Source: Antedon mediterranea (Eukaryota; Echinodermata; Crinoidea; Comatulida; Antedonidae). From it: 64,000 bases of DNA. The stretch lies in assembly GCF_964355755.1 (NCBI RefSeq), contig NC_092674.1, forward strand, positions 29,934,001-29,998,000. Direction: 5' to 3'. The translations under genes were made by a program, and so were the position numbers. The notes beneath the pieces were generated by a model, which was not told the DNA's origin, did no database searches, and saw only the letters and a program-made list of their open reading frames with translations. Numbering within the stretch: the stretch's first letter is position 1; each line of letters opens with the position of its first letter. Shown here piece after piece: positions 3,401 to 60,824 of the stretch.

Positions 3401-5483
3401 ACGTCATTTTTTTAGTTTTAGCTCGAACTACGACTAAAGTCCGGTTTAAGAATACGGGCGATAATATTATTACAATTTCACTCAATAATTCATCAACTCA
3501 TTAATAAATTAAAATATTCCTATGCCTAAAAAGTATTATTGGTGAATGAAGAAACAAATTCAACACATGTTTATCAATATTTTATTTTTTTTGTACTTTT
3601 GTTTCTTCCTAATTTAAAAGGCAAAATACCTTGCTCAAATAATAGTGCTAGGAGCTCAAGTTGTTGGACGTGCATTTACTAAAGCTTTGCAACAAGAAAT
3701 ACAGGGTTAGTATACAGTACATTTAAATTTGAAATAAATACAATTTTTTCTTATAAATTGTTCACTGTCTAAAAATTTTTTACAAATTGTTTTGTTTTGT
3801 CAGTTTTTTAATCAAGTGGTATTTTTGACTGACATCGTTATGTGAATTGTTACAATTTTTCATCTATACAGTAGCTGGTACATCACAGATAGTTTATCGT
3901 TATTTAACAAAATTTGTACATTGTTTTACATTACAGCGAGTCAAGCAGCAGCAAGATCAGCTGGAGGGGGGAAACGAGGCGCCAAAGCGGCTGCTGCAAA
4001 CAGCCTCACAGGAATGACAGCAGAGGAAGCACAGAAAATACTCAACGTTTCCAAAATTGATGAAGAGGCTATTAATAAACAATATGAACATTTATTTAAA
4101 GTTAATGATAAAGCGAAAGGAGGATCTTTTTATTTACAATCTAAGGTATTTAACTTTTCATATTTTTATTTTACAAATGTACATGATTTTTTTTTAGATT
4201 CTAACTACTCTGAATTTTTAACTTTTTTACAATCAGAATTTTTAACTTTTATACAATAAGGATTTTTAACTTTTATACAATCAGAATTTTTAACTTTTAT
4301 ACCATCAGAATTTCCAACGTTTATACAATCATAATGTTTAAAGACCCCTTCCCTGCAATTTTGGACGTTTTTTGGAAAATAATACATATATATCACTTTA
4401 AAAACATTAAACCATGTCATTCCTTGTCTTAAATGTACGTTTTATGGTAAATTATGATAAAAAGTGAGAAACAATGCACTACCTAAGTAGCTCGCGGCGA
4501 TCGACCTCTTGTGGACGGTCTTAGGCCTAGCCTAGCTAGGCTTAGTTTTGTAGGCCTAGCTGGTAAACATCGATAACGTACGAACATCGTACGCTAGCTA
4601 TATACCTAGCCTGACGTTGTATAGTTGCTGCATTAATTGTCTTTCTATTTTTGCCAGACTCCGTTGATACAAATTGGGGAAAACCCGGTATTTTCGCTGA
4701 AAAGTTAGGAGTCTTCCATTTGTTTTGGCTTCACGATCGATCGAAAAGTGGGCGAATTACAGGTGAAAAACAAAAATATCAATCCGCGCGCAATGCATTT
4801 TGGGATTTATAGCGGGCCGCTATAATTATTAGAATCGATTTATTTTTCACATTTTTAACCGTTTAAAGACGAAAAAAGTTATCGCAATAGGACCATATAG
4901 TATTATTTTTACATTAAATATAGTTTGTGATCTTAAATTAGATCTAAAAAACGTAGGGAATGGGGCTTTAACTTTTATACAATTAGAATTTTTAACTTTT
5001 AGACAATTAGAATGTTCAGATAGCAATTGTATTTTTAGAACACTTTATTAACATTTTATTATAGCATATTTTTCTATGTAATTTTCTAAATTTGTTAAAT
5101 CTTGGTATTATTTAATCCTAGTTGGCTGGTCAAGCACATCACAAGATGTCAGTTTTATTACTTTTACGTTATACTTGTGTTATTTTTTGTTATGTAGAAA
5201 GATTAAAAATAAATAAATTATTTGTTATTATTATTAAACCTTTCTTGATGAGGTTTCGCCCTACAGATTCAACAATAGTAAGTTCATCAAGTTTTCAACA
5301 CATACCTTCTAGTATCCATTTCATGCTATTTAGTTAAGACTAAGAGTTTTCAGTATTCAGCTTAACTTTGTTTCGTTTCAGATTGTAAGGGCAAAAGAAA
5401 GATTAGACCAAGAAATAGAGGAAGTAAATGAAGCAGCATCACGTAAAAAGATAAAAGATGGAACAGAGAAACAAGGAACATGA
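305..5483 (+). CDS. PAM16: PAM16 / Magmas, TIM23 import-motor J-like subunit (4 exons, first exon tentative)
   Basis: PAM16 is a mitochondrial inner-membrane-associated J-like protein. It pairs with the J-protein PAM18 and restrains stimulation of mtHsp70 in the presequence translocase motor. Coding exons seen: 3621-3705, 3937-4145 and 5382-5483 (TGA). Splice phases agree throughout, with donors GTTAGT and GTATTT. The product starts [19 protein letters not shown], continues through a small-residue/basic linker, then the J-like part [11 protein letters not shown] (about residues 55-65) and [21 protein letters not shown]. The DK pair replaces the HPD of true J-proteins, as is normal in this family. 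Length is about 132 aa; human PAM16 is about 125. The first full exon begins at GCA (Ala2), so the Met must lie in an upstream exon ending exactly after ATG. The best in-window candidate is ATG at 305-307 directly followed by GTGAGT; this one assignment is weak. Gene identity is very secure. It converges on GLIS2. Confidence 0.93.
441..2470. mobile_element. Putative ~2 kb inverted-repeat DNA element, no transposase seen
   Basis: The segment 441-525 (core CATCTCGGCCGCCGACAA at 465-482) reappears in reverse complement at about 2393-2467, including the doubled CGGCCGCC block and a shared TTGTATGG/GCGCC stretch. The arms are imperfect but long (about 75-85 bp) and GC-rich against AT-rich surroundings. 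The interior holds a 75-bp tandem array and AT-rich DNA but no recognisable transposase. Exact ends and target duplication are not clear. If PAM16 starts at 305, the element lies in its first intron. Confidence 0.5.
681..965. repeat. Tandem array, ~75-bp unit, about 4 copies
   Basis: Four copies start near 681, 755, 831 and 905. Each carries CAATACTG, AAAGATTCGATAGTATGTAA and GATTCGGCAATACCGTACGT. Divergence between copies is a few bases. Because 75 is a multiple of three, the minus strand gives a spurious repetitive reading frame, which is not a gene. Confidence 0.85.
2534..3460. mobile_element. MITE-like element with ~33-bp terminal inverted repeats
   Basis: The left end at 2534 begins CGCCCGTATTCTTAAACCGG and continues through ACTTTAGTCGTAGTT. 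Its exact reverse complement ends at 3460. The flanks read ATA on both sides (2531-2533 and 3461-3463), consistent with a 3-bp target duplication. That, with the ends, resembles PIF/Harbinger-type non-autonomous elements, but the superfamily is inferred. There is no transposase. Subterminal AAGTTCGACTT/AAGTCGAA motifs recur inside. It lies just upstream of the first full PAM16 exon. Confidence 0.75.
4195..4330. repeat. Short tandem array (~21-25 bp unit) in PAM16 intron
   Basis: About five copies of TTTTTAACTTTTATACAATC-like units lie just downstream of the 3937-4145 exon. Two more diverged copies at 4968-5012 lie beyond the inverted-repeat element at 4339-4970. This suggests the array was once continuous and was interrupted by that insertion. 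Confidence 0.7.
4339..4970. mobile_element. TTAA-flanked inverted-repeat element (piggyBac-like MITE?)
   Basis: The left end reads TTTAAAGACCCCTTCCCTGC. The right end reads GTAGGGAATGGGGCTTTAA, giving imperfect terminal inverted repeats AG-N-CCC-N-TTCCCT next to TTAA on both sides. Total length is about 630 bp with no transposase frame. The TTAA target and CCC-rich ends fit piggyBac-type insertion, but the family is inferred. It is nested in a tandem array inside the last intron of PAM16. Confidence 0.55.
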
Positions 5484-7678: not shown

Positions 7679-14658
<6,980 letters not shown>

Positions 14659-33785: not shown

Positions 33786-36700
33786 ATGTTATTAGACTAC
33801 TCCGCCATTGAAGACGAGTCTCACGCGTATTATTTTGACGACGAAGACGATATGTACAGATCTCAGGCCAATTTCTGCCCTACGACAGGCAGCTACAACA
33901 TTGCTCAACAACAGGCTCAGTACCCCGGATCCGATTTTTATTACACTGAACCCAGAACGTCTCAGGAGCAACTGATGAGTACATCGACTTGGACCCCGAC
34001 TCCTTCTAGCACACGTGGAATGACAGACTGGCAAGGACAAGTGACGATGGGGTCATACATAAACCCGATGGACCAACAGACAAACAGTGTGGCACAGTAC
34101 AGTGAATCGGACAATTATTCAGGTCTTTGCGCCGTTGCCCAGGCAATCAATCGCACGCCAACCATGAGCTATCACCACCAATGGATGCGTTCTTCAACCT
34201 ACAGATTTAATCCATCCACAGGTTAGTACACCTTTATCAAATTAAGGCTTAACAGTATATACACGCGATTAACAGTGCTTAACGCGCGCAGTTAGTTATC
34301 ATCACGCGCGCGTTAAATTTGACAAACGGTTAAAACCACGTGTGAATGATTTTATTGCTAATTAAAACCCCGAATAGCTTCTATAGTAGTAAAACCAACC
34401 ATAACTTAATACAGATTGTAAATCTTATGGTTATACGAATGATGCATATAAAATGTTAGGTAAGTACGTAGTATAATTCAGAAGAAGTACCTCTCATGTG
34501 TATTTAAGGGCGCATGAAATTAGTCTTGCGGCATTTATACCACAACTTACGACAACAATGGTTTCTGTTTCGCCTTACCTCCGATCTGATTCTCTGCCCT
34601 TGTGGATTTACAATAGTGTAACATGAATGTATTGGAATACGTACCAATTTTCATCAAGATAGGCATTTAATAGACTTTGGATCTTACAATATTACATTTT
34701 TGGTGCATACGTTGTTGGGATATATTTCCTCCAGTCATCAAAGGTAAACTTTAGAGGCTTTATTAGAATGTATTACATCTCTGTCTAATATTGAATAACA
34801 GGGTGATTACCCCTGTAATATCTAGAGCTAGATGAAAAAGTTTTTAGTACCGTAGTTCTTAGTATTATATTTTAGACCAGGAAATGGTGATATTTTCAAG
34901 AGATAACAGAGTAAAGACATTTACTCTTATCTATGGTGTGAGCCAGGCAACCGATAGACAATTAATACTTATAGACAGATCATTCATTGGATTTAAGTGA
35001 CAATCAAAATCATTTAAAATAATTCTCAAACTTACCATAAGGTTTACAAATAAGAAAATACTTTACTTATAGTTTTTATTTCTATACGATTGGAAAACAT
35101 AAACATTTTGACACATATGGCGTGTCATACTTTAGCTGGGTACGGACAACAATAACAAAAAAAGAAATAACCATGGAGAATTCTGTGGGATAATAATAAT
35201 AATAATAATAATTTATTTGGAAGCTACACTTTTGAAACAGTGGCACACTTGAATGAAGGTGCGTCCAGAGTAATTAAAATAAAAGGGTAAAACAAATTAT
35301 ATAACAATAGACCTATTTACAAGGAAACTTAAACTAAATTATGTAGAAAATATAAAAAAATAACATTAACAAAAAATTTCAGTAATACAGGATTTAAAAA
35401 ACACAGAACTAAGCATTTTCATTGATAAAGATTTGATGTAATATTGTGAACGCTTCTACAATATTCCAGATGATTGACGCCAAATATTTATTTATCTTCC
35501 TATTCTAACACAGATTTTATTATTTTATTGTGTCATCATAATAGTGTTATGGTCTCATAATTACATCTCCTTATTTACTGACTTTCAACTTTTCAACTAT
35601 GGACATTCCACGCTATTGTTTTCAGGAATGGGGACCCGGATGGGGACCAGCTATAGTTTGATCATGGAGAAATAAACTTATTTTTTTCCATGGTTTGATC
35701 GAAGTCGATTCGGGTAGATTCTGCCATGGTGGAGAAATAAGTTATTTCTCCATGATTCTGCAGAGAGTTGTGCATTTTTATTTATATAATTATTGTTATT
35801 ATAACTTTTTACTACATTGTCATGGAGGAATTTACTATTTTGTTTGTTGTTATTAATCATTAAAATTTAATGAGGCAATTTACTCTTATTCTTAAATAAA
35901 TTTTAAGTTCAGTATGCCTGTTATTGTCAGTTTTTGTTATAGTTTAAGATTAATATGTTTTTAGAATGTCTTCCTTAAGAAGTTTTACAGTTCTAGTTTG
36001 ACGACTATACCGAAAAGTGTGCTGCCACTGATAAAATTCTGAATATTCTTTATTTTTGAACACAGAAATTATATTATATTATAATATTAGAATATTAAAA
36101 TTCATAACAATAGAAATATTAAATTAAATACCTAACATATTAAAATACCTAACAATATAATTTAAAAAAAAGTAAAGTACAACAAAAGTGTGAAAAACAG
36201 GATCACTAAAAACAAGCAAAAGTTTGTGATCTGTGGCCCCTTAACTCTCACCCTGACATACTAATAAATATTAATAATAGGGCTGTTATTAAAATAAAAT
36301 TTGGTAAAATGAACATCATGATGAAACAGCCTGATAACGTTGAAACTGCCGCCTTGTTGTGATGTGGTAGTTTCTTACTTACACTAAAGTTGTTTATTTA
36401 TTTTATTGAACAGTGCCGCTAACGTTGTTTACTAATTAATTAACATAAACTGACTTATCTTGCTTCATTAAAGCCTTAGGCGGCGCACTTTGATCAATTT
36501 AAAAAAGAGTTGATTAGGAAAGAAGAAGACTGGTAAATGTTTGTTTTAAAATATATAAATTGGTCGGCTACTTGAATGTACATGTCGGCAAGTCTTTGAT
36601 GTCAATTCTCAATTTAGTTATAAGACTTACTTATTACAACATATAAATTAAGTACAGGTAATAAGAATATTAAAACTAACCACTATTGTCATCATCAATA

Positions 36701-37826
36701 TCATCAACATATCATCATCATCAACATATCATCATCATCAACATATCATCATCATCAACATATCATCATCATCAACATATCATCATCGTCAACATATCAT
36801 CATCATCAACATATCATCATCATCAACATATTATCATCATCAACATATTATCATCATCAACATATCATCATCATCAACATATCATCATCATCAACATATC
36901 ATCATCAACATATCATCATCATCAACATATCATCATCATCAACATATCATCATCATCAACATATCATCATCATCATCAAAATATCATCGTCATCATCACC
37001 TTATCATCATCACCAACATATCATCATTAACATATCATCATCATCATCATCAAAATATCATCGTCATCATCACCTTATCATCATTAACATCGTCATCATC
37101 AACAATGTTTGGACTTATTATTATTATTATTTTTAATATTATCATTATTATTTTTATTTTTTCCAGGTAAAACAAGAACAAAAGATAAATACCGTGTGGT
37201 TTACACGGATCATCAACGTCTGGAGTTAGAGAAAGAGTTTCGATTTAGTCGCTACATCACCATCCGTCGCAAGTCCGAGTTAGCTACTTCACTTGGATTG
37301 TCAGAACGACAGGTAATATATGATAAATTTGTATTTAGTAATTTTTTTAACACTTGCACACTTTCCATTTTTTCCCTAAAACTGGTATTCCCACACACAG
37401 TGTAGGCCTAACATGGTAAACTTTGGTTAAGTCCGCACTCACGATAGCTCTGATGACAGCAGTCGTCCCTGCATCTACTCAACTGTTAATATGGCTTGGC
37501 ATTTAAAGCTATATTTTCTAAATTAGATTAGATAAATTTACTCATTTTGATTTTATTCAAAGGTTAAAATATGGTTTCAAAACAGAAGAGCAAAGGATAG
37601 AAAACAAGCTAAAAAGCAAGGAGTCCAATTGGATGAAACTGAAGGACCAAAACAGACCAATCAGAGAACAGGTTTTATTGAAGGAGTAGAAGACTATTCA
37701 AATCAAAAAGAATTGATGAGAAACATTCCAGCGTCTTACAGAATTACTGACCAACCAGCAACTGTTTTAATAAAAGAGGAACCCATTTCTAGCCAATCAC
37801 AAACGTCGTGTCTCAAGTCTTTATAA
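33786..37826 (+). CDS. Cdx: Cdx / caudal ParaHox homeodomain protein (3 exons)
   Basis: Cdx is a posterior ParaHox transcription factor that patterns hindgut and posterior body in bilaterians. Exons: 33786-34221, 37167-37312 and 37563-37826 (281 aa), all in phase. The N-terminal part is acidic then Gln/Ser/Tyr-rich. A hexapeptide-like HHQWMRS (caudal-type YxWMR) lies about 15 residues before the exon 1 junction. The homeodomain covers residues 151-210 ([60 protein letters not shown]). The intron between Q44 and V45 is the position typical of caudal genes. The C-terminus has an IKEEP sumoylation-type motif. Minor differences from the usual caudal sequence: FRF instead of FHY at 20-22 and AKDRK instead of AKERK. 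It runs towards Xlox. Confidence 0.96.
34222..37166 (+). other. Cdx intron 1
   Basis: AT-rich, with an (ATA)n tract at 35191-35212 that looks like the tail of a minus-strand non-LTR element, several CATGGAGAAATAA inverted pairs near 35665-35755 (perfect hairpin GGAGAAATAA-G-TTATTTCTCC at about 35732), and the ATC-rich array at 36690-37100 that ends some 65 bp before the exon 2 acceptor. Confidence 0.5.
36690..37105. repeat. CATATCATCATCATCAA-type minisatellite next to Cdx exon 2
   Basis: About 25 near-perfect CATATCATCATCATCAA units (15-18 bp) grade into CATCGTCATCATCACC variants. The array ends about 65 bp upstream of the exon 2 acceptor. The open frame across it is an artefact of the trinucleotide repeat. 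Confidence 0.92.
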
Positions 37827-38889
37827 ATCTTGACGATATTTGATCAAAACATTTCAAAGTTGACAGAAAGAAAGAGAGAGAGAGAGAGAGATTGATAATT
37901 GAGAACGAGGTTTTTTAAGCTAAAACCACCTGAAATAAGTGTTTGTAAATAATATACATATTTACTTTTATAAGTATTTTTATAGTTTAATATGTTTTGA
38001 GTATATAACATAAAAATACTAAAGTATCTCATTCCATTCTTGCCTAGTTTAGTATAACTTAAAACTATATTATTCCATGTCTTTTTCAGTTCTTTCAATA
38101 GCAATATTTTTAAAAGTAATGTAGACCTAACCATCTTTTTAAACAAAAGTCGTATCGTACCTTTTAAATTACGCTTTTCTTCGGAGTATTGCGTTAATTT
38201 TAACAGAAAGTCGTTGGAAACGCACATGTTTGACGCATTATATTATTATGTACTGTCTTATATTTTGTTTTATTTTACCGGTACACAGAAAGTTACAATA
38301 TTAAATTGTTAAATATGAAGTTTATTTATTATTGAACCACTAACACGTTTAATTTTTTGGAAAGTTTCTACACATGTACCGTATTGTATTGTACCTATTG
38401 TTCGTATTGTACGTGAAAATCAGGAATGCACGCACGCGCGCATGACTTTAAATAGTTTAAAATATTTTAATCGTGTGACTATGGCGTTGGTTTTAAACTA
38501 ATGTATCAATTTAGATTGTCGTTCTATGATCAACACCGACATTTATATTTGCTCTGCAAATAGACCTTTCGTCTGGGACACGATGTTAAGCTGATAATAC
38601 ATCCGATTATGGTCAGATAGTGACTCTCATAGAAGCTAGTTACATTAAACTTATCAATATTCTATTGTTCAATATTGTGTTAGGGCTGTCGATTTGTGTG
38701 AAGTGGTCCGACCTCCTCACAATAGAAACCACAGTTCTTGAACTTTGCTGATAAGCGGGGCCTACTAAAAATTAAGGGACTCGATCGAGTGCGCTTGTTA
38801 ATACGTACGACAGGATCAATTGCACGATTTCATAAATTGTTATGTATTATTATATTATGACTGGCCCAGATGATTGATACGGTTGTTAT

Positions 38890-39026
38890 GCTCTGTCTAC
38901 ACTATCAAACTTTATATGACAAAAAAATGTGATGTGCCCATATATGGACATGATGATGTCATATCACTACCATCTTTGGGCACATCATACTTTTTGTCAA
39001 ACTAGTTTGATAGTGTAGACAGAGCT
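38890..39026. mobile_element. MITE family A, copy 4
   Basis: It has intact perfect ends GCTCTGTCTACACTATCAAA at both termini and a central GGACATGATGATGTCATATC. It is the best-preserved copy along with copy 1. Confidence 0.9.
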
Positions 39027-39904
39027 TTAGAGAATGTTGAACATACACACAATAAAGATTTGTATTAACATAACCTTTCCTTTCAGTAACACATTTTACT
39101 TTTGTATGGTACATACGTATTATTATTCCTAATCATTTTGGGTGGTTTTTACACATTACCTATTCGTGGTATGAAACATGTAGTTAAACCTATATTTAGT
39201 TTCTCTACGTCAAACGTTGTAGGCCTATTATTAAGGACGTACGGTAATAACCTAAATATAATGATAACAATTCGAATGATACATAATGCCCATATTTAAA
39301 TAGGCCTAGTTCTTAGTGGCAATTTATTCTTTGTTTTCTTGCACGATTGTTTCTAAGCCTACTGTGTGGTAACAATTGTGTTTTATCCAACTTCAATGTG
39401 TATATTGCTGTTTACCATTCTTTGCCATTGTTAATGTAATTTTATATATTGTATTGTGTTTTTTTTAACGTTCGCTCAGAAGCACCTTTGTTCTAGTAGA
39501 ACATATATTTAAAGTCAACTGAAAAAATCTGGTTAAAAATCGACTCTATTATTTAGTTTCGAATAGTTTGTTATCTCCATAAATTGAAATATGATGCGCG
39601 CGAAATTTAAATGCTTCGAATAATAATTCTTGACGTAAGGTGAGGTCTATGTCATTACGGTCTGAACGACTTCGACAATAATTTCACTGTAGGGCTTTCT
39701 AGTTTTTTACTTCAGAAAACAATATATGAAATTATTTTTAATGTGATTTGAATGTTTATGTTTAATAAACCGGTAAAACAAACGCAGAAATGTGTTTATA
39801 CGACGTATCTAGCCTATCTACTAGGCTAGGTAACGTCAGTGTCCAGTCCGGTCCTCCTCACGTTTAAAATCAATTAAAGATGTAGAATAGAATACGAGAA
39901 ACTT

Positions 39905-40115
39905 CATTTCATAGGCCTAATATAATTTACTTCAATTCATAGGCCTAATATAATTTACTTCAACTCATAGGCCTAATCATAGCTGTGAGTAGAATAGGAT
40001 GTACTTCAATTCATAGGCCTAATAGAATTTACTTCAATTCATAGGCCTAATAGAATTTACTTCAATTCATAGGCCTAATAGAATTTACTTCAACTCATAG
40101 GCCTAATCATAGCTG
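39905..40115. repeat. 28-bp tandem array with AGGCCT core
   Basis: About seven copies of CATAGGCCTAATAGAATTTA plus CTTCAATT. Two interspersed copies carry a CATAGCTGTGA segment, at 39975 and 40107, hinting at a duplicated higher-order block. Confidence 0.85.
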
Positions 40116-41210
40116 TGAATATTAAATTACAACATAAATTTCCAATAATCAGTTTAATTTTATAAATCATTGCTGCATTTGTGTCCAAATGAACAAGCTT
40201 CGCTTACTTGCTGAATTTGTAATTTATAATTGTTTTACCTTGATTTAAACAGTCTCACAGCACAAATAACTGTATATCTATTGTATTATATATTTATATG
40301 ACTGTACGAAATTAAAAATTAGATATTATATCCAAAAGTCAGTTTGTTTGTCATGATTATGCTACATAAGGCCATACCGTACTAAAACAGATAAACATTA
40401 GTTGATAGATATTGAATTAGCGCCCTCTATTGGTTTCTAGTCTAACAGCTTATGCAAATTTTGCATAGCAAGATGCGCGCCCATGCGTAGTATCTATATT
40501 ATGTAAATTAACCCAAGAACTGAAAGACGAATGGGTCTGTGTATCTTCATGCTTTGTACCATGGAGAAATAATCTCCATGTTTGTACTTATTCAATACAA
40601 ATAGTGTATATTGCGAAAATAGTGACACATTTAAATGCTTTTAATAGGGTAAGTTATTTCAAGCCCAATAACATAATAATAGCAATGATAGTTTTAAAAT
40701 AATAACGACATTTTTTTGTCGCAAAGATAATTTACCAACATACGGACAGAAATTCCGCAAGGTGTCTCCATAACTTGCCCTTTGGGCGCCAAAGTTAGAT
40801 AGGCTACTGGTATGACGAAAAAGGAGGAGAGTTGATATAAATTTACACTGATAATAATTCTCTGAGATAATTCCATATGGACAAAAACACCACTATTGAC
40901 GTATGTGAGTCCGGCAAATTCCTATAACAGCCTACGCATGAAATAGCTACATCGGTCGTTCAGGTGCAGTTAATATGAAAGGCGCAGAAAAATAAGGAAG
41001 AACATAACTTTTTACATTTTTGACAAATAGAGTAAAATGTCTGTCTAATATTCTGCTCAGATGTTCTGCATAAATCTAGTACCGACTCCACCTTCGTAAA
41101 AACTCCGGAGTTGTATTGGTGTGAGTTAGCGATCTGAAAGAAGGTGTATTACATTGTCTGACCAGATTATTCCATGATCTGACAATGTAACATAGAAAAT
41201 GAACAGTAAT

Positions 41211-41345
41211 GCTTGGTTGCCACTACAGACGCAACACAACGACGTAACGCAACGTAAGGGATTTGACCAATCACAAGCGATGGATTTATTCGACTGTCGC
41301 TTGTCATTGGTCTGCGTCTACGTCATTGCGTTGCGTCCCAGTTTG
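41211..41345. mobile_element. MITE family B, copy 1
   Basis: It starts GCTTGGTTGCCACTACAGACG. The interior has GATTTGACCAATCACAAGCG and TGTCGCTTGTCATTGGTC as opposed arms, with ACGCAACGACGTAACGCAACG and its complement nearer the ends. Confidence 0.7.
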
Positions 41346-42454
41346 AACTAAAATTGAACTTGGTTCAAGTGACAGTTCGGATGATCCCAGCGGTGCCCGT
41401 ACGTCCTTGTGCTTCCAAGTGGAACCAAGAACACCCTTGGTGAATGTACCTAATCAAATGCATTATGATAGATTTAAATATTTATTTTTTATTTTTTAAT
41501 GAGTTTAAATAATGGTACAGAAATAACGACATAAAATAAAGTAAAACACATAACAAGTTTATCGTTAGAACGTTTAAACGCCAACTATACTCGTCATTAT
41601 AATACTACACATGTAGTGACGTACACAAAATATAACTATATATATATATATTTACATCAAAGAAAACGCCGCACAAACTGTACACAATCAAAACGCGATA
41701 ATACACGCGTTGTGTCAATATTTAAATAAGACGGGTCAAAGTTCATATATATACAAATGATAATATTAATGGCCAATAGTTGTATGAAAGTATAGAAATA
41801 CATTAGTTATAGTGTTAAAAATAAACAAATGGTTACGTATTTATGGATAACGAATTCTACAAAATATCTGGTTATCTTTGACATTTCGAAACATTTTACA
41901 GATAATTGAAAAAAAAACAAATGTTCTCAATGATGACGAATTCAATTTTAGTTAATACAGTGCAAGGGCCCACAATTGAGGCGACTTACAGTGGGTTGCC
42001 GCAACCACATTACGTTGTTATGCTAATTTGTTGCTGCTTATACAGTTCCACAGAGTACATACTTTAGTCAATGCAGTATACCACAAAAGCAGAATAAAAT
42101 TAAGTAACCCCATGACCAGGTCTGTAAATGAGTTTAGGTGTTGGTTATGTTGATATGAATACTCTACTACCTGCTAAAGTAACTCTTTCTTATCGTAGTT
42201 ATTTTAAAGAAAATATTTTAACGGTAAAATCTAAATTAATATAATCTTAGTTAAATAGTTCAAATGAAAGTTTATAATAATAATAATAATAATACACAAA
42301 ACAAAGAATGAAATCACAAAATATGCTATACGGTGTGCGTTATATACAAATGCACGAAACGGTTTTAAATTATGGCAAGTTGTATCAATCCGCAGCTTTG
42401 TGATTCGGTTCATGCGAATGGTGTTATGGGGCCATTTTTACGTGTATTAATACT

Positions 42455-45400
42455 TTAATATATCGATTTTTGTATAATGTTTTCAGGATACAACATTGGC
42501 GGTGAAGTTGACGAGGACGTTGACGTAGATAAAGGAAAAGTGTCTGTTATTGGTGAATTTAATAACGGAGACGTTGCACACGCAACCGGTGACGTAATTT
42601 TAGTAGGTGATGACGTTTCTGTTGGTGACGACGAAGTGGCAGACAATGGTGAGGTTGGTAGTTCAGTTTTTGCGTTTGCATTTTCGTCCAATGAAATTTT
42701 CTGTTCGTTTTCATTCTCATTCGGTTTTTTCTTGGCTTCCTCCTTTTTCCACTTCATTCGTCGATTTTGGAACCATATTTTGATGTGCCGTTCAGTCAGA
42801 TTGAGCAAGGCGGCCAGTTCTATGCGCCTAGGCCTAGAGATGTATTTATTATAATGAAATTCCTTCTCAAGCTCAAGTAGTTGTCCACGTGTATATGCCG
42901 TCCGTGTGCGTTTGTTCTCGTCGAAATCTGTAAACGATGCGCCTAGAAAATACAAACAATTAATAATGTTAAGGTTACGATTCATTACGTACTTCATTAA
43001 AAGATCATCGCTAACACCTCAATACGAAGAAACCATGTATAGATCTTGTGAAACTTAATAAGTTAATAGCATTAGTTCTTTAAGGAAATGACAACAATGC
43101 GAAAACCAATTATCCTGCACACAGTGATAGAGAGAATAAAATAAAAATAATGTCTCTCCGCGGTTACTTCTTGTCATCAAAAGTTAATCTCTTATTATCA
43201 AAAGTTAATCACAAATTAACAAAGTTCGAAATCATTGACATAATAATTATATATAATAAATAATATAAACAGGCAAAGAACATTAATTCCAAACCGCTCT
43301 CGGTGATATACTGTAATTTAATTAATTTGAAACAATATGAGGAAATCTGTGAGAATGAGAACAATTCACAATCGTCGATAGGGTTTGGGAAATATATCAA
43401 TTTAATACAGTAGTACGGTAGTTAATAAAAAAAACGGCAAGCGTGTGTTTAGTTATTTACTGTTATTTTTGTCTTTTGTGAGAAGCATGTCGTCTGATAT
43501 CACTTTTTATAACATAATTAATGTTAGCTATTAGCACGCGCCGCACCTGGGTTTGTAATATCTATGACTAATGTGTAAAAGGTGCTGCACACACAATACA
43601 GGCAGCATTTGTAAAGTAAAAAAAAAAGGTAAAGGTGAGTCCCGTGTTCTCTGAACGTAGGGGAATGAGCTGTTAGGAGCTCATTGTACTAAGCCTCGGC
43701 ATTATGTGGTAGGGTGGCCAGTTCCTTTCAACACCGCCTTATTTCTCCCTAGTATTTTTCAACCAAGTACTCATTTATTTTTAGTTGTCGGGAATTGAAC
43801 CCGGGTCTATCTGTATGACAGTCAAGTGTCCTAACCACACGGCTATCCAACTCCTTTGTTACAGGATCTATTATAATCGGGTATGAGAACAAATGTTATT
43901 AGGACAAGTTTCTATTTTATATCTTCACGTACACATAGCTAATTACACAAGACTAATTGAATAAACTAGCATTGTTTTAGATTGAATCCTGTCATTGACG
44001 ATATGTGTACGCTCCCATGATTCCCAAGAAAAATAGCACAGTATATAGGCGGCAAAATGTGATATTTATTTAAAATAAACGGCTGATTTACATAGCTACG
44101 TTTGTTAACGTTTTGCGTCGGATCTGTCCACGCTAAAAGAAAGGCCATAAAAGCGCACTCGGCGCGGCTTCTTTTTATCTGAAAAACAGATTCCAATATC
44201 GATTTAATATACAACAACTTTGTTCAGTCGCAACTTATATTATTTGCAATTCCTAAGTAACGGTGTCCGCAGCTGCGCAGGCTATATATTTTACTCGCTA
44301 GGTACACCGTCCAAAGGTCCAGTGTAGCGGCTGCGAGGCAAATACTACTACTTGCGCTAGAGTGTTTTCGCTTCTTTGAAGTTTACCGGAAAACGTCCTC
44401 CAGTTTTCTGTGTGTATACAGACGAAGAAATGATATTTGAACGTATCCAATCACAATGATGAGGAGGTCGGCTCGCCGATAAAACATTAACCCGGTAATT
44501 AAGTGCCGAACGATATGAAATTGAATTGTATGTTAGGCCTACAGACTGCGTGTGTACCAAGCCATTTTGACATTTCAAAACAAAACATGCGAACATATAA
44601 ACACAATTCAATATACTTTTTAACGTGTTTACGTTTAAATAAAGCTTAGTGTATCACAGTTTCAAACATTGAGTTTTATTCAATAGTTATACAGTTACTA
44701 GGATTAAATACATATCACGTAATTAGTATATATAAACACAACAAGCACAGAACATTAATTCTAAACCGGTGATATACTGAAAATGTTTTAATTAATTTAA
44801 AACGATAAGATGAGGAAATCTTGTGAGAATACAGTGTTATACAGTAGTACATTTGAGTATTTTCGTATTGAATTTCTCAATTTTGCCGATCATTGTATCG
44901 TTATAATATTGCAAAAATAATTAGTTTCTTTAACTTCTATTTTATTTCTCTTTCCATATTTTCCTTGAAAAGTGTGTTCCGTTATTCTCTTAGTTTTTAG
45001 TTTTTTCTATGTAAGCCTATCTTCCCTCAATTGTTATTTATTTTTGACAGTATATTGATCGTTTACCTCTTTTTGCAGACCCATGTATGTTATGAACTAT
45101 TTTTCAATAAAACGGAAATAATCATTTTTTAAATATATATTATTATATTATCAAATATTACTAGGATAACGATTAAACCAGCGACGAATAGAAATTGTCA
45201 CAGTAAATAATTTGCGATTATAACACTGATTCTCAACTGGTCATTGGATCTGTAAAGCTTTGTTCACACTCGGTACGTAAGCACATCGCAAGCGAGTTGA
45301 CCAATGACAAGCGACATTTTGAATAATCCATCTCTTGTGATTTGTCAAATTACATTGCGCTTATTACGTCCTTGCGTTGCGTCATATAGGAACAACCAAG

Positions 45401-47857
45401 CTTAAAGTAAGATTAGGAATTAAAAACGACGGTATCGGTAATGTTTTTTAATATATCGTGTTCCGTAAATGCATGCTGACGATGATATACGTTTTATGCC
45501 TATATAATCGTTTTTATTTTATTTGAGTCTCGTTCCAGGATTTAGCCTTATATCAGTAGGCCTATTTGCCCTTACTTTTTTTCTCGTTAGGGTAGCCTTA
45601 ATATTCTATATGACTCTGTATTTTAAACTAAATTTACTCCAACGATGTCAGCCTGAGAAAAAAACTAGGCCAATCTCTACCATTATTTAACGATTAGGCC
45701 TATGATCGTTTGTGATATAATAATACTTTTAGTCTTATACCGCGGTATACCATGCGTTATTCTTATATCGCAGTATACCATACTACTGCGTTGTCTTATA
45801 CCGCGGTATACCATGCGTTATTCTTATACCGCGGTATACCGTACTACTGCGTTAGTCTTATACCGCGGTATACCATGCGTTATTCTTATATCGCAGTATA
45901 CCATACCGTACTACTGCGTTAGTCTTATACCGCGGTATACCGTACTACTGCGTTAGTCTTATACCGCGGTATACCATGCGCTATTCTTATATCGCAGTAT
46001 ACCGTACTACTGCGTTAGTCTTATACCGCGGTATACCATGCGCTATTCTTATATCGCAGTATACCATACCGTACTACTGCGTTAGTCTTATACCGCGGTA
46101 TACCATGCGCTATTCTTATATCGCAGTATACCATACCGTACTACTGCGTTAGTCTTATACCGCGGTATACCGTACTACTGCGTTAGTCTTATACCGCGGT
46201 ATACCATGCGCTATTCTTATATCGCAGTATACCGTACTACTGCGTTAGTCTTAAATCGCGGTATACCATGCGCTATTCTTAAATCGCGGTATACCGTACT
46301 ACTGCGTTAGTCTTATACCGCGGTATACCATGCGCTATTCTTAAATCGCGGTATACCATACTACTGCGTTAGTCTTATACCGCGGTATACCATAATATGC
46401 GGTACTCTTTAGTTATTCTGTATACTATTACCATATTTTTACTTTTGCCTTATCTGCGTCATAATGCCTTATGAGTTTTTTGTGCATATATTACTGTAAA
46501 TACTCTCTAATAATATGTTTATAATGTAGCATTCTTTATATGGTAACTGACAACAGACTCATTTTTCAATCAATAACTTATTTTACACTACTACTGTGGT
46601 GGTTGTACCGAAGAGAACTTTTAGGTTGCAGTTGTTATTGGGGATTGTATTATAATTATTGAATATACCCGACTATTTCACTATTACTTAGTTTAGATTT
46701 GTCCATTTTCCTATAAAATACAAGACTGCATAGATAGCCCTATAAAACAATTGGTATATATAAGACAATGACTACAAAGCATTAAACCAATTAATCTTGT
46801 AACCTAGTGTCATGCTACAAACAACAATACAGTCCAAATCTTGTAACCTAGTGTCATGCTACAAACAATAATACAGTCCAAATCTTCTTAAACACAATTT
46901 GATAGAGGTACAGTTTCCTAGATTAACTTTCTTTTTTCTTTCTTTACATTCGGCAAAAGTTTTATAATTATCCGCAAAATATATATGCCTTTAATAATCT
47001 GTAAAAGTTTGAAAACTTGTTTCCAAAAAGTTGGTCAAATAAATATCTGGGAGACAAAATTTACAATGTTCTTCTAAGAGTTTGAGAGAACTATTAAAAT
47101 AGAATTGATTAATTACAACAATTATCAATTTGTATAGTTATTTATAATTTCGGAAATCAATACATTATACAAATTTAGACCTAAATTAAAATGGGAAATG
47201 TGGAAGTTAGAACAGTAAACTTTGTCACAATTTGTTTGTTGTTATTACGAACCTTTTCGACGTACCAGGTCTTTGTTAAGTAATCACTTTACTTACTAGC
47301 ACATTTTATTGTATGTGCTGCCAAGAAACGAACATTTTATTTGGCACACTAAGAAATGTTTATGTTTTAATGCCACTGAGGCCTCCCTCTGAAGGGAGTT
47401 GAACTTGTATAATTAGCGGTTTTTTTTATGACAGTTTGAACATACCTTGCCAGTTTGCTTTCCACATGTGTGCGTGTGACTTTGTCTGTTTCATCCAGGG
47501 GTAGGCTTGGTACCGTTCATTTTGGCTCGTCTGCTGCTGCAACTTCATCATCAGGGTTGCCGTGTCGGTTTGCATCTGCGAAGTCTGGTTTTGCATCTGA
47601 CAAGAAGCCGCATACTGACTTAATAAATTGTCTTCCAACTGCTGGTCTACTACGGCCATTGACGACCCTCCTCCACTACCCCCACCGCTGCCACTATACC
47701 CCCCATTTGGTAAAGTCTGCCGATTAGCGTAAATACAAGCTGGAGGCGATCCCCCATAACCCACACTTTGATTTTGACATGTTGGTTGCGTCGGTAAGTA
47801 ATGTTCCTTGTTAGTAGATGTATATAAACTGTTATAATACTGATTATTACCATCCAT
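42455..47857 (-). CDS. Xlox: Xlox / Pdx ParaHox homeodomain protein (2 exons)
   Basis: Xlox is the central ParaHox factor; it acts in mid-gut/pancreatic-type endoderm in deuterostomes (family knowledge). Exon 1 is 47857-47446 and exon 2 is 42942-42455 (299 aa), joined in phase 1 with donor GTATGT. The start is fixed by an in-frame stop at 47884-47882. The N-terminus [12 protein letters not shown] and [11 protein letters not shown] match the Pdx N-terminal pattern. A Gly/Ser stretch follows, then the hexapeptide YPWMK at 119-123. The homeodomain is 147-206 ([20 protein letters not shown] ... [20 protein letters not shown]) with His at homeodomain position 44, the diagnostic Xlox/Pdx residue. 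The C-terminal tail is Ser/Thr/Pro-rich. Intron 1 is 4.5 kb. It converges with Cdx, and its neighbour upstream is an ASIC-like gene rather than Gsx. Confidence 0.97.
43618..43856 (-). mobile_element. tRNA-Asp-derived SINE
   Basis: Read on the minus strand, the 5' end gives GTTGGATAGCCGTGTGGTTA, GGACACTTGACTGTCATACA and GACCCGGGTTCAATTCCCGA. That is box A, a CTGTCAT anticodon-loop-like segment and a near-perfect box B, closely resembling tRNA-Asp(GTC), with GTTG/CAAC acceptor-like pairing. A body of about 165 bp follows (AACTGGCCACCCTACCACAT and AATGAGCTCCTAACAGCTCA are recognisable landmarks). It is not a functional tRNA: the acceptor stem is degenerate and the tail continues. Confidence 0.75.
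45254..45404. mobile_element. MITE family B, copy 2
   Basis: The ends are AAAGCTTTGTTCACACT and AGGAACAACCAAGCTT. The interior CGAGTTGACCAATGACAAGC and TCTTGTGATTTGTCAAATTA arms match the family layout. Confidence 0.75.
45715..46395. repeat. Tandem array of palindromic TATACCGCGGTATA units
   Basis: Over about 680 bp, half-units of about 28-33 bp alternate between TTATACCGCGGTATACCATG and TTATATCGCAGTATACCGTA, joined by CTACTGCGTTAGTC or CGCTATTC. TATACCGCGGTATA is a perfect 14-bp palindrome occurring about a dozen times. It lies in the Xlox intron. Confidence 0.92.
46793..46888. repeat. Direct duplication, ~47 bp x2
   Basis: AATCTTGTAACCTAGTGTCA through ACAGTCC is repeated once in tandem with a single base difference. 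Confidence 0.8.
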
Positions 47858-54564: not shown

Positions 54565-57500
54565 TCAATTCATTTCCAGTCCGTTGTTATCTACTCCAAT
54601 TCTCTGTTTGCTGATTGATCTCAGTTTGCTTGTTCTCCTTGAACCGTTTTGTTGGAATATAGATTGTACTTTCAGTACGAAAAACTGACCAAGCTCAGCA
54701 AATGTTATGACACTAGCACCAATGAAAAGACCTAACTGGCCACCGATATCACCTACAGAATAGAAAAAACAAGCCCTATTAATTGCTTTATTTTCGTCTT
54801 TATCATGATTACAAATAAAATTTAAAAAAAAAAATGCTTTGTCCACTAGCGTTGTTAATTTGAGTTTAATAACCAGAGTTCTGGATATCCCTACCCTTTT
54901 ATTTCTCTTTCAGTATACACACCGTATAGTTGTCTCGATTTTTTTCAATTTCTTTGTAGACTTTTACGTCAAACAAAATATGTATTCTATGTATAACTTT
55001 GGGCATTAAAACAATTAAAATCAGCGATACTTACTAAGAAGGGCTGAGAATGTCATGGCTGCATTCTGTTTATACTCCTGAAAGTTAAGTTCTTCGTAGT
55101 ACACGTCCAGTAAGATAAAGTTTTCCCTGTTAAGATGAAAACATTTAAATCTAACCAGTAAACTAATAATTCAACTAAAATATTTTAATTTAACAGAGTT
55201 ATTATATTAGTATAGCCGCACATCAAAAAGCACTTTTATTGTTTGTACTTTTTAACGTTTCTTAAGCTTGGTTCCCATTAGGACGCAACGCAAGCGTGTT
55301 GACCAATGATAAAAGCGGCAGTTTGAATAATCCATCGCTTGTGATTGGTCAGCTCACTTACATTGCGTTTCGTTCTTCTCTAGTGTGAACCAAGCATAAG
55401 CCAATCAATAACAAATTATGGAGTTATTAGAAATTATTTCTTGAACGCTCTGATATAGACTTAAACGCGTTTGCGTCGAACGTTTGACGCTTTATATCAT
55501 CATTGAGTTTTTCCACTCACTTGATATATTCTGATTCGGAGCCATAGAGTGTTTTCAGGTCAGCTTCGACGTTTTTATTCGGTATTGATGCGTAGTTTAC
55601 CGATGTGTCAAATGTTGTGTATTTGCAGGGTACTGGACAGTCGCATTCTGGTAATTTGCCACTCTTTAACCTCTCTGGAAATCAAAATGAAATAGTGATT
55701 GAGCATAACCTGATAAATTATTGTTATAAACTACAAACAAATTAGCACAACCAGAAATTTACACGCACCCTGAAACACTACTATTTGTCATTTCTACAGT
55801 TGTAAAGGAAGTCTGTTATTAGGTAAATCAACTGTCTGGCTTTGTTGATGATGGCGAAAAATGTAGCGCAATGAAGTGCCACCGACTGGACACATAGTAA
55901 ACGTAAGTAAAACGCACTTAACTTGAAGAATTTTGTGACCTCACGATGTGCCGCTTGATAACATTTAGTCTGCGCACGCTCATAAACGTGAGCATGCGTA
56001 ATCACATAGCGCGTCGTGACGACAACGAAATGTCGCTTTTGTCAGAATGGAGAGAGATTAGTAAATTATAAGTTGCCTATTTCTTCATTACAGATTCTAT
56101 GTGGTACAAGCTACCGCTTGTCTGTGTAAATTGTCCTTTAGACTACAGAACATGGCCCATTGGCGCTTACCTAGTACATCTTTTGCGCATGAGTTCGTTT
56201 GTTTCGGCGTACACTCTGTTGCGTTACCAGGATATCTAAAAACCAATAATGACAATAATTCGTCTTATAATGTTTAATATTCTACAGAATTATAGACAAA
56301 ATGCATACAGTGTATATATGCATTCTTATTAATTAAATAAGGATACTTAAGATAATATTCTAGGACGCCCTCTATATCGTCACACAAACATGTTTCCATA
56401 GTCGCTCTCGTTAAACTAGTGGAATAAAGATCTGTTCAGGCCAACGGCTTTGTGTAAGAGGATTTATCACGATCAAGTGCGCAAGTACCGACTGGCCAGC
56501 TTATACGCATGCGTAGAGAAGGATTTAGAAGAAGAAAACATGAATACGCATATACGTATCAACTTGACGCTTTCAATTCGCGCGAACAAATTCGCCTAGG
56601 CGAAATCGGCGCGCCTACGGTTGTTTTTCCATCCGTTGAATCATAGATTAGTGTGAATGTGTATTCACTTACCTGATTGGACGGCATTGACATTCGGTAA
56701 ATATCCTGTCCAGACGACATTCAATATAACAACCAGACAGTGTATACTGGTCATAGTACGTTAGTTTGCGTGAAGGCTGGCATTTTCCATGAGGAGGATC
56801 TAAGTTTGTAACCTTCAAATAAAAACAAAATAAGCTACTTTTTAAGCTGTACGTACGGGGGTGTTGGTGGGGAGAGGGAGGCGGATGGATATATGGAGGG
56901 GCAGGGCGATGGAGATATGGTGGGGGATTGGTTTAGGGTGCGTATATTTCTTCACTTACCTGGATACGTTTAGTAGACGTAAAGGCGTGGTAGCCTGGAG
57001 GAATTGAGATGCCTTTTGATTCTATAAGAGGCGGCTCGTTCTGATCGTGTACCAGTACCTTCAATCCTGCCTCGATGTTCCCGTCCTTAGTCTCTGTATA
57101 TTCATCCTTTAATAAAACAACAATAACATTAAATATACGGAAAATGTTTTTTGTGGGACCTCATAGAAATTATTATTACATACACAACATAGTATCATAC
57201 ATATGTGTTTTGATTGTTGTTATATATGCCAAAATTGTTTTCTTTTAGGAATACCGTGACAAATCGCCTATTCATTAAGTTGAATTGATTGGATTGATTG
57301 ATTAAATGATTGATTAAATGATTGATTAAATGATTAATTAAATGATTGATTGATTAAATGATTGATTAAATGATTGATTAAATGATTAATTAAATGATTG
57401 ATTAAATGATTGATTTATTGATTGATTGGCATAGTTAAAATATAAGGTGCTCTATATTCAAATACTATACGTTCAAATTCACTGTTAAAATAATACGTCC

Positions 57501-60500
57501 AGTAAGATTGAATTACGAAATATTATTGGCTACAGAGTAAAACTAATTAAGTTTCATTGTATCGAAATCAATAATCAATAAATCTAGATTTAATGTCATT
57601 ATAATACTGCCGTACCCTTAATTAAGTTTTATTGGTTAATCCAGCGAGTCTAATATGTCATTAGCCTCCGATATAAATATTGATTTCGCAGTTACATTCA
57701 GGTACATTAACGAATCCATTATTCAACGGTTTGACTATCAAACCGAATCAATATGATATAATTTAAAATAACTTATTGACTCAAATACACCCATTTCGCA
57801 TAACAGATCGTGAAAGCTCTTAAACACAGGTAAACATGAGACATTTCCCTAAGTAGATCACCTTTGTCTAACAACAATGACAATGTTAAGGACCCCGTTG
57901 TATAGAATGCGTCACAGACGGACGCCAAGGCAATACGTTGAAAGCCTATTAACTATCTATGCGCATAAATCAAGTTTTGAATCGTATAGTAGATATGCGC
58001 GTCGTTAAACGAAATCGCACCATTTTAGTTTGCACACTTTCATCATTCATTTTTTTGCTCTTTTTTGTTGTTGATTGTTCAGCGCTTAGAGGCGCCCTGC
58101 ATTTTACGCTATCAAATTGAACATTATCATTAGTAATTATTGATATTCAATACGTCGTAATCAAAATCATAACTATGTTCTTACCTGGAGTATGTTTATC
58201 ATTATTTGTAAGCCATTTCCAGCTCCTGGTTGTTTTACCTTTAATATTGCGTTATCGCTTTCACCAGAATTAAATGTGTAACAATTCCCATACGATGTGA
58301 AAATGTGAGTGAAATTCTGGAAGAATAATATAAAGTGAGATAAAATACACTGACACTTTTGCTGCTTATGGCGCCCCATAGCCACTTGCTTGAAAGTCTG
58401 CATTTCTGTTTTTTGGTTAAACAATTCAGAAATTAACTCTAGTAAATAGATGCATACATTGACCGACGCTGTTGTGGATTTATTCTAGTAAAAATCTGTA
58501 TTGCTCAAATGTAAGTAGGGGAGAGGAAAAGGGAGTACTTTTAGCAACATCTCAAAATTTCCTCGTCACCGAGTCATCTTATTAGCAAACCTCTCAAGAT
58601 TTGAGGAGGGAGAATACTTGACTGACATTTCAATGTCAGTCGAATAGCCGTCATCATGTAAAGTGTCTTATATTAAACAATCCAAGTGAAGGACTTTCAC
58701 AATCAAATATTTTAATAACAAAAGAATGGTTGTCGTCACAGTCTTTATCATTAAACATTAATACAAAGATCTTCTGCACGTTTTTCTTAAATACAGTTTG
58801 TGTGCTGGTATGTTAGCTTTTTGTCATACCCGTCAGGTATGTTCCCGACATCATCATTTCTCGTGGTGCCACTCCCCTATGCCTAGTTTATATGCCTAGT
58901 TTATATGCCTATTTCAATGATACGTTGTTTTTCTGACAATAATATGCCGAATGTATCTATATGACAGGTCTTTAGGCGTCTCAGGTCCACGGTTATGGAA
59001 CGATCTTCCAGTGTCAATTCGGTCTGAAGCTAGCTTTGATAGCATTCAGCGAAAAGTAAAACGTTTCTTTTATGGAACATAATTTCGATGTACAGCGTGT
59101 TTGATAATGATTTCATTCTAAGAGCGCTATATATATTGAGTAATGTAATGTAAAAGTAATGAATGTATCTATATGATTATTATTCTATATTCTAATTTAA
59201 CTTATCAAAGATTATTATATTATCATCTAAATGAAATATACATACAAACTGTGGTTTGCTTATTATTAGGACATTTGAAATTCGTCACTTAATAAATACA
59301 CGAATTGTGTAAGGTATAGGCTATAATGCAAGAATGATGGAGTTGATTGAATCGTAACAACTACACCCACATTTCTTTCTTCTTGTTTAAGACCAGTTTA
59401 AGTAATTAAAGTACAATTTATTTTGTTTTCTGGTTGGATTTACTCGTTAGCTATAATTTGAGAGCAAGTAATTGGTACTGTACTTATTTTGATTAGAGTG
59501 AGTAAGTAAGTAACATGGTTAGCAGATCCTGAATAAAAGAATCTCTGACAAATTTATTATGATTGAGCTGTAAGAAAATACCAGCTGGTTTGTTTATTAT
59601 TTTTCCCACAATATAATACCCATGTGTAATTAATTATGAATTTGTAACACAAACATGTCACAGGAATTGTTTTATACTTGTAAATTTCAGACAATCGTTA
59701 TCTTATATTATGAATATGATATAGTAAGTTTGCTAGATATATACAAACCCATAGACAGGATTGTTACAGGCGGCTATCTACCAACTAACTAACTATATAG
59801 CCTAGTATAGATGAGAATAGAATGCTCGGCTATAGCTTGGTAGGATTACCCAAAACATTTTCATGAGTTGACCTATTCACCAGCACTTTAGTTTGAAAAG
59901 GGCACTTTAGGAAAAAGGGTTTCTTTCGAGCTCTACGAACCCCCTGGCAACAGTCCATGAGTAATGCAATGGAACTCTACAGACCTGTATTTTATCTGGT
60001 GAACGTTGGGAAAGACAAAAACAATGACGTAAACAAGTCGAGCGTAGCTACTTACTGTAGCAGAGCATGTCTGGTCCAGCCATTGACAGGACTCCACCGT
60101 TTCATCGTCCAGTTGAAAGCCCACCCTCCTCGTGAATTCCGATGTGTTGAACGGTTCGCTTCCGAAGATATCAGAATAGTTCTCAAGTTCTGATTCCGAG
60201 TAATAATCGTAATCTTCCGCTTCCCATAAATATTCGATGATCTTTCGTTCGTCTTCTGTCAGAGATGAATTGCGGTACCTGTAATGAAAACAGTTTTTTA
60301 CATATTGATTCTACAGTTATTGCAGTATATGTACTTTACCAACTTTTAGCATAGGCATAGCTGACGGTCTATATCCAAATGTGATATGCCCATATATGGA
60401 CATGATGTCTTATCACTACCCTATTTGGGAATATGATATTCCCAAATAGGGTAGTGATAAGACATCATATAGATATTATCACTACAGTATTTTGGGCACA

Positions 60501-60824
60501 TCACACTTTTTGTCAAACTAGTTTAAGGTCTAATTAAAGTACGTTACGTTAAATAATATACCTGTTAAAATTACATATCGTGACTGCTGGGAAGTCCATT
60601 TCAGTTAGGAAGGATAACTTGATCTCTGTGTTTACATTGAATTGAATATATTCATCAATGCGTAGTACAATCTGCCAGGTGCATACGCCAAGCCCGCCTA
60701 GGAACACCATCAACCATAGCACCTTAACGATAAATGCTTTACTTGTTGCAATGTACTGTACCCCATGTAGGGTGGTTGTGGTAGCAAACTCTTCCTCAAC
60801 TGTAGTCTGCTCCTTTCCCGCCAT
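54565..60824 (-). CDS. ASIC/DEG-ENaC family sodium channel (9 exons)
   Basis: A trimeric plasma-membrane cation channel subunit. Exons: 60824-60562, 60278-60056, 58316-58185, 57106-56960, 56812-56673, 56235-56171, 55674-55521, 55126-55035 and 54752-54565. All nine join in phase (1404 nt, 467 aa). The cytoplasmic N-terminus carries the conserved gating His-Gly at 20-21 (TTLHGVQYIA). TM1 is about 33-54 and is followed by FPAVTICNFNR. The large ectodomain has family cysteines (SCQWLDQTCSAT, YGNCYTFNSG, AGLKVLVHDQNEPP, GCYIECR, CQCRP, CDCPVPC). Pre-TM2/TM2 has DIGGQLGLFIGASVITFAEL with the GAS selectivity filter at 417-419. It is somewhat shorter than vertebrate ASICs (~510-530). The subfamily (ASIC versus other deuterostome DEG/ENaC, including peptide-gated) cannot be settled by eye. 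A TTTTTCTTCGTGCAG acceptor just before the ATG permits a further 5' exon. Confidence 0.94.
55264..55398. mobile_element. MITE family B, copy 4 (in ASIC-like intron)
   Basis: The ends are AAGCTTGGTTCCCATTAGG and CTAGTGTGAACCAAGC. The interior GTGTTGACCAATGATAAAAG and CGCTTGTGATTGGTCAGCTC are opposed. It is the clearest copy of the family. Confidence 0.85.
57288..57425. repeat. 12-bp tandem array (ATTGATTAAATG)n
   Basis: About 11 units of ATTGATTAAATG with an ATTAATTAAATG variant, in intron 3 of the channel gene. Confidence 0.9.
58966..59160 (+). pseudogene. LINE (L2/CR1-type) ORF2 C-terminus and 3' end, remnant
   Basis: A frame from 58966 to the stop at 59080-59082 reads RSLGVSGPRLWNDLPVSIRS and continues EASFDSIQRKVKRFFYGT. 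It matches the GPRLWNSLP...F+..LK..LF end found in L2/CR1-clade reverse-transcriptase proteins (family knowledge). The 3' end has AAGAGCGCTATATATATTGA, as L2-like tails often do. The rest of the element is absent. It lies in intron 2 of the ASIC-like gene, in the opposite direction to it. Confidence 0.75.
60365..60525. mobile_element. MITE family A, copy 6, with internal inverted duplication
   Basis: Internal family-A motifs (GTGATATGCCCATATATGGA, GGGCACATCACACTTTTTGT, CAAACTAGTTT) are present, but both terminal repeats are degraded. Its centre is a perfect inverted repeat at 60402-60468 (31-bp arms, 5-nt spacer). The element fills most of the 283-bp first intron of the ASIC-like gene. Confidence 0.75.
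60402..60468. repeat. Perfect 31-bp-arm palindrome in ASIC-like intron 1
   Basis: The arm from ATGATGTCTTATCACTACCC (60402-60432) is repeated exactly in reverse complement at 60438-60468, separated by ATGAT. Confidence 0.9.

Follow-up and report, generated by a model that had tools for sequence, protein, structure and literature searches.

A linked ParaHox locus, most likely from a crinoid, with Xlox and Cdx paired and Gsx reversed and partitioned off

Background

Which ParaHox genes stay together when the cluster begins to come apart? The question is raised by a window of 64,000 nucleotides (C5:29934001-29998000, the whole stretch of DNA first analysed) from a genome of 354 Mb in 18 contigs. 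The window carries the homeobox genes Cdx and Xlox, and the third ParaHox gene, Gsx, lies in the sequence to its right. An original prediction, made from the letters of the window, had described the linked Cdx-Xlox pair and proposed extending the assembly in search of Gsx. It had also stated that the ParaHox genes are dispersed in the sea urchin and clustered in the sea star, which agrees with the published accounts (PMC11310086, PMC3710244).

Temporal colinearity has been put forward as what keeps the ParaHox cluster intact (PMC3694477). Among echinoderms, the sea star and the sea cucumber are described with intact clusters, the brittle star with one that is partly broken and the sea urchin with dispersed genes, and the crinoids are described as the earliest-diverged class. 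A crinoid in which the genes are linked, yet Gsx is reversed and partitioned, would provide an intermediate among these and would show which pair stays together. It would also place BRCA2 and a VEGFR-type kinase in an echinoderm ParaHox neighbourhood. Here we investigate the window together with the 110.5 kb to its right (174.5 kb in all, reaching past a kinase exon), and the homeobox genes of the remaining genome.

Results

Cdx and Xlox are complete and convergent

The features of the Cdx-Xlox pair are as follows, in positions of the window.

33786-34221, plus strand, Cdx exon 1, ATG at 33786, donor GTTAGT
37167-37312, plus strand, Cdx exon 2, first part of the homeodomain, ending SERQ
37563-37826, plus strand, Cdx exon 3, remaining part of the homeodomain to the stop
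37827-42454, no strand, Cdx-Xlox intergenic stretch and common 3' flank, 4,628 bp, no N
42455-42942, minus strand, Xlox exon 2, the entire homeodomain including ERHIKIWF, to the stop
47446-47857, minus strand, Xlox exon 1, ATG at 47857, YPWMK hexapeptide

Both genes are complete. Cdx (33786-37826, plus strand) has three exons with GT/AG introns, one of which interrupts the homeobox, and encodes 281 aa; Xlox (47857-42455, minus strand) has two exons, a GT/AG intron and 299 aa. They stand tail to tail, 4,628 bp from stop to stop, as the original prediction had it. Its assignment of the two genes from their homeodomains and class signatures is borne out as well. The best match of the Cdx homeodomain in the PDB is CDX1 (7q3o; E 1e-32, 57/65 identical over the aligned homeodomain), the first class other than Cdx being 6m3d at 1.6e-24 (engrailed, named twice for two matched stretches), followed by fushi tarazu at 1.3e-18. 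The nearest homeodomain, the motif and the split homeobox thus all place this gene in the Cdx class. For Xlox the best match is PDX1 (2h1k; E 1.4e-32, 54/60 identical over the aligned homeodomain), followed by Scr at 1e-25, and the gene has both the histidine of ERHIKIWF and the YPWMK hexapeptide of the Xlox/Pdx class.

A survey of the genome for homeoboxes, in which 150 of 163 candidates were scored, gave 104 matches spread over 11 contigs. No second copy of either gene was found among the genome matches: those to the Cdx homeodomain (42 in all) are otherwise at most 63% identical and those to the Xlox homeodomain (45 in all) at most 75%, and they represent other homeoboxes, Hox genes among them. 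In a homeodomain tree of 24 rows, built without a detached posterior Hox gene at C2 8.83 Mb, Cdx pairs with CDX1 at 100/100 and Xlox with PDX1 at 97/91. Long branches were flagged in this tree and only 6 of its 21 inner branches are well supported.

The absence of gaps and the complete genes on both sides make an assembly error at 38-42 kb less likely. The tandem-repeat scan covered 33-49 kb of the window, and so only that part of the Xlox-Gsx interval that lies within it. A 28-bp tandem repeat sits inside the intergenic stretch at 39901-40140, and the Xlox intron holds, at 45729-46409, a tandem array based on the palindrome TATACCGCGGTATA. No match to Rfam was found in the window at gathering scores.

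Gsx is linked but faces the other way

The proposed extension to the right found Gsx on the same gap-free stretch of contig C5. The gene (C5:30065484-30066599, plus strand) is complete, with two exons and 274 aa, and its homeobox lies at C5:30066294-30066464 on the plus strand. The homeodomain is nearest to GSX2 (PDB 8eml; E 7e-32, 55/60 identical), then to 6m3d (1.1e-28, two stretches) and PDX1 (3.3e-20), and the tree pairs it with GSX2 at 100/99. The protein has SRSFYVDSLI, the N-terminal motif of the Gsx class. No second Gsx was found; the other places in the genome are at most 67% identical to its homeodomain (47 matches in all). The three ParaHox class pairs do not form one clade in the homeodomain tree (3 changes).

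From the ATG of Xlox to that of Gsx is 83,626 bp. Together the genes take up 98,814 bp, which places the whole ParaHox set within about 100 kb. This span is free of N, as is all of the 174.5 kb from the left end of the window to beyond the kinase exon. Under a crude model of uniform placement, the probability that Xlox and Gsx would both fall within 99 kb of Cdx is about 3e-7.

The strand order on C5 is Cdx plus, Xlox minus, Gsx plus, and Gsx and Xlox are therefore head to head. Published deuterostome clusters have Gsx and Xlox co-oriented, and it is for this reason that we call Gsx reversed; the term depends solely on the relation of Gsx to Xlox, not on the way in which Xlox and Cdx are turned towards one another. 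In chordates, Xlox and Cdx face each other by their 3' ends. The account of Ptychodera flava words its own Xlox-Cdx pair as "head-to-head" (PMC3698058). For Xlox and Cdx, the likeness to chordate clusters noted in the original prediction stands, in that the published deuterostome clusters also have the two on opposite strands.

Genes between Xlox and Gsx

The locus departs from the canonical deuterostome cluster in a further respect, since genes other than homeobox genes lie inside it. Three loci of DEG/ENaC channels (ASC family) and BRCA2 sit between Xlox and Gsx, and other small or intron-rich genes of this interval may have been missed. The "retained, very compact pair" of the original prediction is accordingly linked and compact as described, but it is more than a pair: Gsx is present 83.6 kb away, reversed, with BRCA2 and the three channel loci between. 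The intervening genes and the kinase exon beyond Gsx are as follows.

C5:29990660-29994788 (56660-60788 of the window), minus strand, DEG/ENaC locus 1, PF00858, three exon-wise matches, candidate gene
C5:30003827-30007365, plus strand, DEG/ENaC locus 2, PF00858, right of the window
C5:30019185-30019451, minus strand, DEG/ENaC locus 3, PF00858, right of the window
C5:30031903-30038536 or longer, plus strand, BRCA2, 14 BRC stretches, OB1 and helical domains
C5:30102101-30102430, minus strand, VEGFR-like kinase exon, best PDB match VEGFR1, E 7.8e-16

In the whole genome, the helical model of BRCA2 finds its only matches in two exons of this locus (3 of 3 candidates scored), and there is a weak TR2 match further to the right. 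The VEGFR-like exon lies 35.5 kb past Gsx. Also right of Gsx are a trefoil-domain gene and a KH-domain exon, presumably RPS3.

Other presumed neighbours were sought in the genome. PF09349, which we take to stand for PRHOXNB, was without a match, and PF10256, taken as CHIC-like, had a lone match on another contig, C4; intron-split genes could be missed in both cases. FRY is a human neighbour of BRCA2; matches to its domain PF14222 do occur on C5 but 6.5 Mb off, so that a tight BRCA2-FRY block was not found. Matches to PF00858 are numerous elsewhere, with clusters at C5:26.05-26.48 Mb, on the ParaHox contig, and at C8:4.32-4.45 Mb.

Left of Cdx, the window holds a PAM16 gene (3846-4256, plus strand) and a C2H2 zinc finger gene (7682-9876, minus strand), which was read as of GLI/GLIS type and has PRDM9 as its best PDB match and GLI as its fifth. 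A long AT-rich tandem array at 12159-13623 is open in three frames of the plus strand, with repeated peptide units.

The Hox complement and the host

From what kind of animal does this locus come? The Hox region lies at C2:7793581-8206132. Ten homeoboxes on the same strand stand in a row at C2:7.896-8.206 Mb. Two convergent posterior Hox genes, at 7.828 Mb (plus strand) and 7.848 Mb (minus strand), are 47 kb from the next Hox gene, and an Evx-like homeobox is at 7.794 Mb. The detached posterior gene, which has a split homeobox, lies further off at C2:8834000-8836400 and is possibly Hox11/13d or e. Hox names were assigned from gene order and residues, and on that basis five posterior genes are counted here. 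The tree groups four posterior Hox genes (95/98) and resolves little else. For comparison, Ptychodera is described with four posterior Hox genes and Saccoglossus with a fifth.

The feather star Anneissia is reported to have ten clustered Hox genes and two face-to-face posterior genes, and is in both respects like the genome studied here. The two differ in how far off the posterior pair lies (more than 360 kb in Anneissia, 47 kb here) and in genome size (an estimated 553 Mb against 354 Mb). A diploid number of 36-46 chromosomes is given for most echinoderms, while the homeobox matches here fall on 11 contigs. COX1, sought for its bearing on the mitochondrial code, was not found in the genome contigs. 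These points and the nearer posterior pair would favour a hemichordate or another deuterostome as host. We consider such a host improbable, since the convergent posterior genes fit the feather star pair, a detached posterior gene with a split homeobox is present, and Ptychodera has four posterior Hox genes against the five counted here. Judged by gene order and residues, the Hox complement, Hox4 and Hox6 included, would point to a crinoid, which we regard as the likely host. The echinoderm host on which the original prediction had made its interest depend is thereby supported.

Discussion

A probable inversion of Gsx beside a paired Xlox and Cdx

We interpret these findings as an echinoderm ParaHox locus, most likely that of a crinoid, in which all three genes are intact and linked, Xlox and Cdx have been kept together, and Gsx has been inverted and partitioned off (probability about 0.85). 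Both the genes and their linkage are familiar, and what makes this locus a variant is its reversed, partitioned Gsx. From comparison with the published clusters we infer that the inversion of Gsx occurred in this lineage. Written with Xlox reading rightwards, the locus runs kinase, reversed Gsx, reversed BRCA2, channel genes, Xlox, Cdx. This order would follow if a segment carrying Gsx, BRCA2 and channel genes had been inverted and one of the two breaks had fallen between Gsx and Xlox. To bring the kinase over from beside Cdx to the side of Gsx would take a second inversion, now of the entire cluster, or some other move.

Why might one gene have moved and two have stayed? Xlox and Cdx may form one regulatory unit with common cis elements in and around their joint 3' flank, while Gsx, under regulation of its own, would tolerate being moved. 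As homeodomain transcription factors, Xlox and Cdx would be expected to act in nested gut domains, and Gsx mainly in neural or maternal roles, judging from the families and from the work on sea star and sea urchin; nested gut expression of Xlox and Cdx is described in both animals (PMC3710244).

Human BRCA2 and the chromosome 13 ParaHox cluster are a few Mb apart, so the position of BRCA2 between Xlox and Gsx may reflect a long-standing linkage that has been tightened here. The flanks look like those of a reshuffled ParaHox neighbourhood, because FLT1 lies beside Cdx in Ptychodera and also near the mouse cluster (PMC3698058).

Several observations weigh against this interpretation. The VEGFR-like exon stands beyond Gsx, yet FLT1 in Ptychodera stands beside Cdx, and since the two are on different sides more than one rearrangement is needed. 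Repeats that might have mediated an inversion were sought by self-comparison (E 1e-20, pairs of at least 200 bp); this gave four inverted pairs, two of them self-palindromes, and none that brackets the Gsx segment. The orientation is not unheard of, as Gsx and Xlox of Platynereis dumerilii are also head to head (PMC2723086). Constraint on Xlox-Cdx as a unit is further challenged by the sea urchin, in which all three genes are dispersed (PMC11310086, PMC3710244), and by Platynereis, which keeps Gsx-Xlox together and moves Cdx (PMC2723086).

Could the reversed Gsx instead be a product of the assembly, through a segment that was misoriented or wrongly joined? In favour of this, tandem repeats occur between 33 and 49 kb of the window. 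Against it, with no N in the 174.5 kb there is no scaffold gap flanking Gsx, each of the three genes is complete, and inverted repeats that bracket the segment are lacking. We consider an artefact improbable. Slightly less probable still is that head-to-head Gsx and Xlox represent the ancestral bilaterian state, with co-orientation having arisen separately in chordates and in other ambulacrarians. Platynereis, with the two genes head to head on one contig 42 kb apart, is what this would predict. But there no non-homeobox genes lie between them, unlike here (PMC2723086). Its Cdx is at the opposite end of the chromosome arm. Co-orientation is shared by chordates with intact clusters, by Ptychodera and by Patiria (PMC3698058, PMC3710244), and the cluster of the sea cucumber is described as matching that of the sea star. 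Because of this shared state, one or two inversions in the present lineage are the simpler account, and the likeness to Platynereis is read as convergent.

More tentatively, at a little under even odds, we propose that inversion and partitioning of Gsx show a crinoid ParaHox cluster caught in the midst of breaking up. Gsx would have been flipped, with BRCA2 and the channel genes shutting it off from Xlox-Cdx, which would have been kept at a spacing of 4.6 kb. Taken with the brittle star, this would suggest that regulatory constraint in most ambulacrarians, sea urchins excepted, acts on Xlox-Cdx rather than on the three-gene cluster. If so, the earliest-branching echinoderm class would allow the time at which Gsx is activated to be set against the breakage of the cluster.

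In the passages of text covered by the literature search, we found no account of a crinoid locus arranged in this way. A crinoid locus may already have been drawn, because Hox and ParaHox organisation is stated to be documented in each echinoderm class except brittle stars, with several echinoderms in figure 2d (PMC11310086), and because ParaHox clusters of seven echinoderms are reported in a supplementary figure (PMC8913654).

Comparison with known ParaHox loci

In amphioxus, Xenopus, mouse, human and Ptychodera, Gsx and Xlox are co-oriented and Cdx is opposite (PMC3698058). Among the nearest known loci is that of the sea star Patiria miniata. It too has the full set of genes in a similar span (87 kb against 98.8 kb), with Xlox next to Cdx on the other strand, a Cdx of three exons with a split homeobox and a Gsx of two exons, the likeness of the exons being one of number and of the split, not of the exact intron position. 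It differs in that Gsx is co-oriented with Xlox (Lox), there are no intervening open reading frames where channel genes and BRCA2 stand here, and PmLox has three exons against the two found for Xlox; the Xlox-Cdx spacing is 13 kb against 4.6 kb (PMC3710244). The sea cucumber cluster is said to match that of the sea star in gene composition and orientation. Ptychodera flava likewise has Xlox and Cdx on opposite strands, 6.2 kb apart, in a span of 106.8 kb, but Gsx is co-oriented with Xlox and no other genes lie inside, neither of which holds here (PMC3698058). The Xlox-Cdx spacing is thus compact but, to judge by these loci, not unique, 4.6 kb being close to the 6.2 kb of Ptychodera and shorter than the 13 kb of Patiria; the entire amphioxus cluster is within 35 kb.

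A Gsx set apart from Xlox and Cdx is reported elsewhere. Saccoglossus has Xlox and Cdx adjacent and Gsx on a different scaffold, of unknown linkage (PMC3698058), and in Ciona Xlox and Cdx are 240 kb apart and Gsx sits on a separate chromosome (PMC3710244). The brittle star Amphiura filiformis is like the present locus in keeping Xlox and Cdx together with Gsx decoupled; there Gsx is duplicated and more than 5 Mb away, whereas here one copy was found, 83.6 kb away (PMC11310086). The state of Amphiura is in line with Xlox-Cdx as a regulatory unit.

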